DNA of 16,040 nt from Candidatus Undinarchaeales archaeon SRR5007147.bin71 (lineage in GTDB: Archaea; Undinarchaeota; Undinarchaeia; Undinarchaeales; Undinarchaeaceae). The stretch's first letter is position 1, and every line of letters starts with the position of its first letter. The notes beneath the pieces are model-generated. The model did no database searches. It was not told the DNA's origin and worked only from the letters and a program-made list of their open reading frames with translations. Below, one piece after another: positions 4,837 to 16,040 of the stretch. The translations under genes and the position numbers were made by a program. Where the stretch lies: contig DVAE01000037.1 in assembly GCA_014189675.1 (NCBI GenBank), forward strand, positions 1 to 16,040. The letters run 5' to 3'.

Positions 4837-6653
4837 TGGAAAGACCAACTGACGTATATCTCAATGGAAGAATTATCGGCAATACAGATGATGCTATCAA
4901 GCTTTCTGATGAGATGAGGAACCTAAGAAGGCAGAGCGTTATTGCATCGGATGTCAGCATATCATACATTGATTCTGAAAACGAGCTTCATATAAACACT
5001 GACGAAGGGCGTGTTGTCAGACCTCTTATTCGCGTTGAAAAAGGAGTTCCAATTCTCACTGAAGATTATCTTAACAAAGTAAAGAACGATGAGATGTCAT
5101 GGGGGGATCTTGTCCGAAGAGGGATAATTGAGTACCTTGACGCTTCAGAAGAGGAAAATACCTATATAGCTCTCAATGAATCCGACTTGACTGATGAGCA
5201 CACTCATTTGGAGCTGGATCCGGCAACAATGTTCGGAGTATGCGGAAATTTTGTTCCCTTCCTTAACCATAACATGGCAACCCGTGTCACCCTCGGTGCA
5301 AATATGTCCAAACAGGGTAGTGGACTTTATGCTTCCAATTACTCAATTAGAACTGATACACAGAAACACCTTCTCAATTATGCTCAGATGCCAATAGTCA
5401 AGTCAGTCCCAATGGATTTAGTGAATTATGATGAAAGACCCTCAGGACAAAATCTTGTTGTAGCTATTCTTTCACAAGGAGGGTATAATATGCAGGATGC
5501 TATCATATTAAACAAGGCATCAGTCGAGCGCGGAATAGGCCGCTCTGTTGCCTTCAGAACTTACAAAGCATCTGAACAGAGGTATCCTGGTGGTCAGGTT
5601 GACTCAATAGAAGTTCCTGACAAGGAAGTGAGGGGTTATCGTTCCGAGACTTGTTATAGGCACCTCGGGGAAGATGGAATCGTTGAGCCCGAATCAATAA
5701 TAGGGGAAGAAGACGTTATACTAGGTAAGACATCCCCTCCTAGATTCCTTGAGGTTATGGAGGAGTTCGGAATCTCTGTTAAAAACAGGAGAGAAAGTTC
5801 ACTTGCAGCAAAGACTGGTGAAGGAGGAATAGCAGATACAGTTCTTATTTCAGAGAATCTCGAAGGAGACAAACAGGTCAAGGTAAAACTTCGTGATCAA
5901 AGAATTCCTGAGCTTGGAGACAAGTTCTCATCAAGGCACGGTCAAAAAGGTGTCATTGGTCAGGTTCTCCCTCAGGAAGATGCTCCCTTCACAGAAGCTG
6001 GAATAATTCCAGATCTCATAATTAACCCGCACGCAATTCCTTCAAGGATGACTATCGGTCAGTTGCTTGAGTCAATAGGTGGAAAACTCGGCTCTCTAGA
6101 AGGAAGGAAAATTGACGCCAGTCCCTTCACAGGGGAGGCAGAAGGGGACATGAGGTCACAGCTTGAGACTCACGGTTTCACAAATACCGGAAAAGAAGTT
6201 ATGTATAATGGGGTGACTGGGGAAAGACTTGAAGCGGAAATTTTCATTGGAGTTGTCTATTATCAGAAGCTCAAGCATATGGTCGTTGACAAGATAAGAG
6301 CCCGTTCAAGGGGTCCTGTTCAGATACTAACAAGACAGCCAACTGCAGGAAAGGCAAGAGATGGGGGTCTGAGAGTAGGAGAAATGGAAAAGGATACCTT
6401 TGTAGCACACGGGGCGGCACTCCTTTTGAAGGAGCGGCTCCTTGACGAGTCAGATAAAACAACTGTTCCTGTTTGCAGTAGTTGCGGTCTTGTCTCTGTA
6501 TATGACAGATTCAGGGATATGTATTTCTGTACAGTATGTGGTGAGAACATCGAAGCAAAGATGGTCGAGATGTCTTACGCATTCAAACTGCTTCTTGATG
6601 AAATGAAGTCACTGTGCATTTACCCAAGACTTTTAATTGGTGATAAAGGATGA
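4833..6653 (+). CDS. rpoB1: RNA polymerase subunit B' (C-terminal part of split B)
   Basis: 606 residues completing subunit B. Conserved blocks: GYNMQDAIILNKASVERG near residue 217, KFSSRHGQKGVIGQ near 363 (hybrid-binding domain), the YYQKLKHMVVDKIRARSRGP region near 475, and QPTAGKARDGGLRVGEMEKD near 500 (anchor and clamp contacts). The C-terminal clamp carries a zinc site with Cys548, Cys551, Cys566 and Cys569. The start overlaps the B'' stop (ATGA) with no convincing Shine-Dalgarno site, so equal dosage of the two halves probably comes from termination-reinitiation. The stop overlaps the rpoA' start the same way at 6650-6653. Confidence 0.97.
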   Translation: MMERPTDVYLNGRIIGNTDDAIKLSDEMRNLRRQSVIASDVSISYIDSENELHINTDEGRVVRPLIRVEKGVPILTEDYLNKVKNDEMSWGDLVRRGIIEYLDASEEENTYIALNESDLTDEHTHLELDPATMFGVCGNFVPFLNHNMATRVTLGANMSKQGSGLYASNYSIRTDTQKHLLNYAQMPIVKSVPMDLVNYDERPSGQNLVVAILSQGGYNMQDAIILNKASVERGIGRSVAFRTYKASEQRYPGGQVDSIEVPDKEVRGYRSETCYRHLGEDGIVEPESIIGEEDVILGKTSPPRFLEVMEEFGISVKNRRESSLAAKTGEGGIADTVLISENLEGDKQVKVKLRDQRIPELGDKFSSRHGQKGVIGQVLPQEDAPFTEAGIIPDLIINPHAIPSRMTIGQLLESIGGKLGSLEGRKIDASPFTGEAEGDMRSQLETHGFTNTGKEVMYNGVTGERLEAEIFIGVVYYQKLKHMVVDKIRARSRGPVQILTRQPTAGKARDGGLRVGEMEKDTFVAHGAALLLKERLLDESDKTTVPVCSSCGLVSVYDRFRDMYFCTVCGENIEAKMVEMSYAFKLLLDEMKSLCIYPRLLIGDKG

Positions 6654-15783: not shown

Positions 15784-15803
15784 TCTAAAGTTGGTTATAT
15801 AAC
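15784..15803. repeat. Degenerate half unit at the left end of the array
   Basis: CTAAAGTTGGTTATATAAC resembles the right half of the full units (TTAAAATTGG then TTACTATGTAAC). It contains the perfect 10-bp palindrome GTTATATAAC at 15794-15803. It abuts the left arm of unit 1; its own left half is not clear. Confidence 0.5.
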
Positions 15804-15852
15804 GCCGAGGTCAGACATAGACCTTAAAATTGGTTACTATGTAACCCTCGGC
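15804..15852. repeat. Dyad repeat unit 1 (49 nt)
   Basis: Arms GCCGAGG (15804-15810) and CCTCGGC (15846-15852) are perfect inverted repeats. Inside, ACATAG pairs with CTATGT. Two alternative local hairpins are also possible: AGGTC-N7-GACCT and GGTTAC-TAT-GTAACC. Identical to unit 3 over all 49 bases. Followed by a 20-nt spacer starting TCAGAAGA. No coding frame is evident. Confidence 0.8.
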
Positions 15853-15872
15853 TCAGAAGAATTCAACACAAA

Positions 15873-15921
15873 GCCGAGGTCAGACGCAGACACTGCAATT
15901 GGATACTGCATAACCCTCGGC
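15873..15921. repeat. Dyad repeat unit 2 (49 nt, diverged core)
   Basis: Same arms and same length as units 1 and 3, but the core differs. The inner stem ACATAG/CTATGT becomes ACGCAG/CTGCAT, so two of the pairs changed together, while one position becomes C/A (G-U in a minus-strand RNA). The local hairpins of units 1 and 3 are largely lost. A 12-nt spacer TCGCATAAGCTC follows. Confidence 0.75.
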
Positions 15922-15933
15922 TCGCATAAGCTC

Positions 15934-15982
15934 GCCGAGGTCAGACATAGACCTTAAAATTGGTTACTATGTAACCCTCGGC
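15934..15982. repeat. Dyad repeat unit 3 (49 nt)
   Basis: Identical to unit 1, exactly 130 bases downstream. The 20-nt spacer after it differs from the spacer after unit 1 at one position, so a 130-bp block (unit, spacer, unit, spacer) seems to have been duplicated. Confidence 0.8.
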
Positions 15983-16002
15983 TCAGAAGAAGTCAACACA
16001 AA

Positions 16003-16040
16003 GCCGAGGTCGCATAATCTGGTATTGCGCTGGGTTGCTA
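16003..16040. repeat. Start of a fourth, broken or truncated unit
   Basis: The left arm GCCGAGG recurs at 16003-16009, again 130 bases after unit 2, but then reads TCGCATAA, which is the start of the spacer after unit 2, rather than the core. This looks like an internal deletion or array end. The rest of the window shows nothing recognisable. Confidence 0.5.

Follow-up and report, generated by a model that had tools for sequence, protein, structure and literature searches.

Tandem hairpin units in front of a tRNA-Ser gene of an Undinarchaeota genome, probably copies of a gene-less miniature mobile element

The array that closes the contig analysed here is best read as three tandem copies of a gene-less miniature mobile element lying at the 5' end of a tRNA-Ser(GCT) gene, a reading to which we give a probability of about 0.7. 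By sequence comparison, we could establish the anatomy of the units, the confinement of these hairpins to tRNA ends, their insertion polymorphism at sister loci, the existence of several families and the presence of analogues elsewhere in the phylum. The window, i.e. the whole stretch of 16,040 nucleotides that was analysed, is the complete contig C23 of the 39-contig, 624-kb genome SRR5007147.bin71 (G000, largest contig 54,083 bp), and the contig end falls inside the tRNA.

Two related genomes were used for comparison, G001, taken as GCA_002687935.1 (largest contig 173,317 bp), and G002, taken as GCA_002495465.1 (19 contigs, largest 75,044 bp; for both, cf. Table 1 of PMC7414124). The three are all marine Candidatus Undinarchaeales of the phylum Undinarchaeota (PMC7414124), and the tRNAs of each were annotated. 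On contigs C7, C11, C12, C13 and C16 of G002, runs of N are flanked on both sides by identical stretches of 18-24 nt, which look like assembly scaffolding gaps and not like biology.

The array and the tRNA-Ser gene that follows it

The three full 49-nt units of the preliminary description were recovered at the positions listed in Table 1, units 1 and 3 being identical, with starts 130 nt apart, and the two 20-nt linkers differing by a single base. Each unit starts with GCCGAGGTC, continues with TCAG, a stem-loop and AAC, and closes with CCTCGGC; linker included, the inserts of units 1, 2 and 3 measure 69, 61 and 69 bp. The predicted fold of unit 1 has an energy of -21.9 kcal/mol, with a z value of -5.1 in comparison with shuffled sequences. 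The starting segment GCCGAGGTC corresponds to the first 9 bases of tRNA-Ser(GCT), copied in each unit. What had been described as a broken unit after the array is the 5' part of this tRNA gene, since GCCGAGGTCGCATAATCTGGTATTGCGCTGGGTTGCTA, which follows unit 3 and its 20-nt linker, is the 5' start of the truncated tRNA-Ser and, at the G001 locus, a complete tRNA-Ser(GCT) stands directly after the array. The statement that the array fits no tRNA pattern has thus to be given up, the units being copies of the 5' end of the following tRNA gene, while the absence of a CRISPR pattern stands: the spacers are 20 and 12 nt long, one of them recurs, and the repeats copy a tRNA end. An integron attC site was also rejected, as the arms do not match RYYYAAC/GTTRRRY by eye. 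The proposal to read past position 16040 in order to count further units has lost its object, because the contig runs into the tRNA-Ser and the array is over before 16003.

Upstream of unit 1, the segment TTGGTTATATAAC (about 15790-15803) resembles by eye the 3' half of a unit and is absent at the same place in G001. The order of the putative rps10 ORF and the array is the same in G001, where the Ser(GCT) locus consists of EF-1A, the following ORF, the units and the complete tRNA. Since the TATA-like box is located upstream of the array, the units would lie in the 5' leader of the tRNA, and the array is probably transcribed as a tRNA-Ser leader. A search of the whole 624-kb G000 with the unit, allowing up to 3 mismatches, gave no further copy (0 for the reversed-pattern control). 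No Rfam 15 family reached its gathering score between 15380 and 16040, a region where the tRNA, being truncated, lacks the length to score.

Growth by duplication of a two-unit block, as first proposed, accounts for the identity of units 1 and 3, but G001 has two units, and the duplication is insufficient by itself, considering that units of the type of unit 2, with the same kind of linker, are present at other tRNA-Ser genes; linker L2 also follows such a unit at the tRNA-Ser(TGA) of G001. Judging from these sequences, repeated insertion or exchange among tRNA-Ser genes is also involved in the growth of the array.

Table 1. Coordinates of the array features and of inserts at other loci of G000
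Feature	Contig	Position	Strand	Basis
ORF, putative rps10 (assignment of the preliminary description)	C23	15441..15752	+	ORF list; G001 synteny
TATA-like box TTTTATATC, putative promoter of the tRNA-Ser transcript	C23	15754..15762	+	sequence; conserved in G001
Unit 1: tRNA 5'-end copy GCCGAGGTC, hairpin TCAGA..TAAC, complement CCTCGGC	C23	15804..15852	+	
Linker L1 TCAGAAGAATTCAACACAAA	C23	15853..15872	+	sequence
Unit 2: inner stem with compensatory changes, CATAG/CTATG to CGCAG/CTGCA	C23	15873..15921	+	
Linker L2 TCGCATAAGCTC	C23	15922..15933	+	sequence
Unit 3, identical to unit 1	C23	15934..15982	+	
Second linker L1, 1 base different from the first	C23	15983..16002	+	sequence
tRNA-Ser(GCT), 5' part, cut off by the contig end	C23	16003..16040	+	sequence; orthologous G001 locus
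Family B insert, tRNA 3' end	C34	2756-2843		
Family B insert, tRNA 3' end	C32	16810-16889		
Family B insert, tRNA 3' end	C4	2169-2255		
Family B insert, tRNA 3' end	C29	8634-8690		
Family B insert, tRNA 3' end	C30	10130-10183		
Family B insert, tRNA 3' end	C14	22654-22726		
Family D insert, 3' end of a protein gene	C33	about 5090-5200	-	

Hairpin families at tRNA ends

A scan of the three whole genomes, on both strands, for TCAGA, a stem of at least 5 and TAAC (family A) yielded 5, 6 and 2 matches in G000, G001 and G002, respectively, and all 13 are located at tRNA ends, in forward orientation at 5' ends and inverted at 3' ends. The inverted body was found at the 3' ends of Ser(TGA) in G000 and G001, its counterpart in G002 being decayed, and of Ser(GCT) in G001. 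When the stem was not required, TCAGA..TAAC did no better than the reversed control, so that the stem matters. The outer arm is a copy of about the first 9 nt of the adjoining tRNA, and this copy is complemented by the arm that follows the hairpin. The outer arm reads GCCGCGATC at Ser(CGA) of G000, GCCGCGGTC at Ser(TGA) of G002, GGGCCTGTGGTC at Val(CAC) of G001 and G002, and, at His, GGCCCGGAT in G000 and G002 and GGTCCGGAT in G001. The body is TCAGA/TAAC at the Ser and Val genes and a TCAAA/TAAC variant at His.

In 6 of 10 family A inserts, at Ser, Val and His genes, pairing with the own tRNA end beats pairing with every foreign one; a seventh pairs fully or nearly with its own end by eye, and the remaining three are decayed. 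The seven own-matching inserts comprise five at Ser genes, the Val insert of G002 and a His insert; one of the seven, unit 1 at Ser(GCT) of G001, is an orthologue of unit 1 in the window. At Val(CAC) of G002, the stretch matched by the complement arm is nt 1-10 of the tRNA; it includes nt 8-10, beyond the acceptor stem, and this rules out that the arm derives from a shrunken tRNA copy as its 3' acceptor strand. Over seven aligned units, 6 of the 16 stem pairs change on both sides, against 0-1 in slid-partner controls, a covariation that supports, without proving it, a kept structure, the sequences being few and related. A family A model run over 197 archaeal genomes matched the three congeners only, apart from two weak 20-bit matches (contig C7 of G005, and G154) that are taken as chance.

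A rival reading is a structured leader RNA, in which the units would be a selected cis-acting part of the pre-tRNA-Ser, serving its processing or regulation. The position of the array between the TATA-like box and the tRNA, the compensatory changes in the inner and outer stems and the conserved TCAG/AAC internal loop are consistent with such a role, as is the presence of an RNase P RNA in G001 and G002; the archaeal RNase P RNA was not found in G000, where it is probably missing from incompleteness of the metagenome-assembled genome (MAG). The His inserts, moreover, are kept in all three congeners, a persistence that could hint at function. Nevertheless, the presence of the units varies among congeners, and the motif is inverted at tRNA 3' ends, where the sense RNA would differ. 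Folding with ViennaRNA gave an acceptor probability of 0.07 for the native sequence, 0.05 with the arm scrambled and 0.99 for the tRNA alone, which speaks against this role, albeit as a weak test that ignores tertiary structure. Taken together, we regard the leader RNA as unlikely, although it is the strongest of the rivals to the mobile-element reading. The same folding, with the same weakness, gives no support to the idea that the complement arm shields tRNA folding by hiding the displaced end.

Family A is not alone. At the 3' ends of tRNAs, other hairpin bodies are present, each then followed by a copy of the 3' end of that tRNA, from the T-loop onward. Family B has 10 matches in G000 and 4 in G002, some of them weak; the six G000 inserts of Table 1, each followed by the 3'-end copy of its own tRNA, have in common a core like TTTTTGCCGAGGAGCAAAGCGACGAGGGAAAAA. 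Families C and D are further hairpin bodies at tRNA 3' ends, and family E belongs to 5' ends, those of Thr(TGT) in G001 and of Asn in G002; the Asn gene of G001 has it in shortened form. Pro(ggg) and Ser(tga) show perfect tandem copies. The inserts, of about 50-150 bp and devoid of genes, share hairpin families and narrow sizes across many tRNAs.

The concentration at tRNA ends was quantified in G000. A repeat of at least 11 nt of the own 3' end is present nearby for 13 of the 39 tRNAs, compared to 14 of 2000 random windows; two of these 13 reflect shared T-arm sequence (at Asp, a neighbouring tRNA, and at Val(CAC), an unrelated T-arm-like stretch), which leaves 11. Close direct repeats of 16 nt or more number 23, of which 12 are located at tRNA ends, while tRNAs with 200-nt margins represent 2.9% of the genome; the 12 include the array of the window, which the script had listed as elsewhere owing to the truncated tRNA.

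Analogous, but different, inserts were found in two other families of the phylum, at Thr(GGT), Ala(GGC), Tyr, Lys and Gln in G005 and at Thr(GGT) and Phe in G003, raw matches that on reading proved to be neighbouring tRNAs or chance being omitted from this tally. Those at Thr(GGT), Ala(GGC) and Tyr of G005 (L300, L311 and L325) form a separate family of multi-hairpin 5' inserts, in which approximately the first 14-15 nt of the tRNA are copied.

Insertion at sister loci and a possible mechanism

Among the options of the preliminary description, a miniature inverted-repeat element comes closest, as units of this kind prove to be insertions whose sites stand empty in sister genomes. In 19 filled/empty pairs among G000, G001 and G002, covering family A and four other hairpin families, the native flank matches at 31-40 of 40 positions beyond the insert, where it adjoins the outer copy of the tRNA end, and at 5-19 of 40 next to the tRNA; the pairs were selected for a filled appearance in one of the genomes, and several have an empty partner in common, so that they do not amount to 19 independent events. 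At Ser(CGA), G001 is without a unit, and in G000 a single unit of 61 bp directly abuts the 5' end of the tRNA. The Ser(GCT) locus of the array gave no empty site, being filled in both G000 and G001 and absent from G002.

Direct repeats of the tRNA end stand on either side of the inserts, and the tRNA stays intact. Most tRNAs have two identical end copies and, because of this identity, replacement of the end looks the same there as its duplication. Two loci suggest, from their sequences, that the insert supplies a new end while the old one is pushed outward, which is the mark of end replacement of the integrase type. The first is a protein gene of G000, which we take to be KBL-like from its C-terminus and which has the family D insert of Table 1 at its 3' end: its working end is recoded, and the native end, as found in G002, is left downstream, outside the insert. 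Going by this gene, the elements are not limited to tRNAs. The second is the tRNA-Ser(TGA) of G001 (C10:45017-45101), which has inserts on both sides and the acceptor GCCGAGG/CCTCGGC, compared to GCCGCGG/CCGCGGC in G000, and whose outermost 5' copy is ACCGTGG. As far as these alignments go, replacement appears clear at the KBL-like gene and is only compatible with the data at the tRNA-Ser(TGA), where the acceptor switch could also be a gene conversion from another tRNA-Ser gene.

Considering the units as a mobile element, insertion would leave the tRNA intact and add, outside the insert, a further copy of the tRNA end, which would be the outer GCCGAGG arm of the unit. The body of the element would contribute the hairpin (TCAG, variable stem-loop, AAC), the linker and an arm that complements the displaced acceptor strand. 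The target would most simply be recognised as DNA, at the acceptor-stem sequence, because family A sits inverted at tRNA 3' ends and the acceptor stem reads alike both ways. Recombination may be carried out by an integrase-type enzyme acting in trans, with the hairpin as its presumed recognition site, and the elements would bring no benefit to the host. Against this reading it can be argued that the complement arm has no accepted mechanism, and that one hairpin family is found at many tRNAs with the end of each, for which a conventional att site would need target copying or repeated exchange of ends.

The search for a mobilising enzyme covered the Phage_integrase domain PF00589, Y1 transposases and reverse transcriptases, in MAGs that are incomplete: PF00589 was not found in G000-G005, nor was a Y1 transposase (Y1_Tnp, for IS200/605-type mobility) in the six genomes, or a reverse transcriptase, for retro-insertion, in three. 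The result for PF00589 bears on a second rival, according to which the units are what is left of ordinary viral or plasmid integrative elements, worn down at tRNA att sites to attL-attR with little between and sometimes re-duplicated in tandem. In archaea, tyrosine integrases act at the 3' ends of tRNAs, or at the 5' half in the case of the pTN3-like ones, and always restore the tRNA (PMC8371274), and partial tRNA copies beside integrated elements are common in archaea (PMC9897764); the replaced end of the KBL-like gene would fit as well. Besides the negative result for PF00589, however, IMG/VR gave no exact match to the family A, B and C patterns, and random decay would not leave the same body of about 60 or 110 bp in inserts of shared hairpin families and narrow sizes. 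We consider such remnants improbable, slightly more so than the leader RNA. Replication slippage or template switching at tRNA palindromes, producing quasi-palindromes and tandem copies with no mobile element at all, agrees with units built as quasi-palindromes on the tRNA end, with the complement arm reaching past the acceptor stem at Val of G002 and with the perfect tandem copies at Pro(ggg) and Ser(tga), and may still explain the complement arm and the tandem growth, but as a complete account it is very unlikely, since it would not carry a shared TCAGA/TAAC body between unrelated Ser, Val and His (TCAAA/TAAC) loci in both orientations.

Significance and comparison with known systems

Returning to the mobile-element reading, the Undinarchaeota might, as a tentative extension that we hold at somewhat less than even odds, harbour a distinct class of gene-less mini-elements with several families, which would use both tRNA ends and occasionally the ends of protein genes, replace the gene end, construct a foldable arm that complements the displaced end and depend on an unrecognised enzyme. 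No earlier description of such elements was found in the openly accessible literature, outside of which most subscription papers lie. tRNA genes are classic landing sites of viruses and plasmids, and here gene-less pieces of about 50-150 bp are found at roughly one third of those in a single tiny archaeal genome. If confirmed, the elements would offer a natural system for studying the minimal size of an integrating element, the enzyme that moves it and a two-sided targeting of tRNA ends, as well as the way in which tRNA processing handles hairpin leaders and trailers. In practice, such repeats may break assemblies at tRNA genes, the present contig ending in one, and they could pass for tRNA fragments.

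The inserts work like a miniature integrative element, and we file them neither with the tyrosine-integrase elements, because no integrase was found, nor with the classic MITEs, because they have no fixed duplication length and no shared terminal repeats. Like MITEs and mobile hairpins, they are short, gene-less and palindromic, with several near-identical copies and empty sites; the duplicated stretch, however, ranges in length from about 9 to 40 nt, and the outer arms change from one tRNA to the next. Rickettsia palindromic elements and REP/BIME sequences are likewise short, dispersed, hairpin-forming and gene-less, but, unlike the present inserts, they are not known to be directed to tRNA ends or to carry a copy of the target end. 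The RtT repeats of E. coli tyrT (Rfam RF00391) are 178-bp tandem units, located at a single tRNA 3' end of which they include a copy. The array resembles them as tandem repeats beside a tRNA gene with an end copy, and differs in that the inserts are genome-wide and belong to several families.

The mobile hairpin elements of organelles, among them double-hairpin elements, RHE (PMC2800124) and GC clusters of yeast like GC42 (PMC4478555), are similarly tiny, palindromic and gene-less, vary in presence among close relatives and have no known enzyme of their own; they are mainly intergenic, and the flanking duplications reported for them are none or 2-3 bp, whereas the present inserts stand at tRNA ends with end copies of 9-40 bp. 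Casposons, too, belong to archaea, and some have settled at the 3' end of a tRNA or protein gene, where they duplicate 1-27 nt of the target, median 15 (PMC4046053). They are, however, large and carry Cas1, PolB and terminal inverted repeats, none of which was seen in the inserts, and the latter use both 5' and 3' ends. In comparison with the tyrosine-recombinase elements of archaea (PMC8371274), the inserts measure about 50-150 bp instead of kilobases, have no genes and no PF00589 found, and consist of few hairpin families spread over many tRNAs with an arm complementary to the displaced end. Nevertheless, the two have in common the insertion at a tRNA end, the intact tRNA, the repetition of the tRNA end in direct orientation at either border and, as far as the two loci above suggest, the displacement of an old end.
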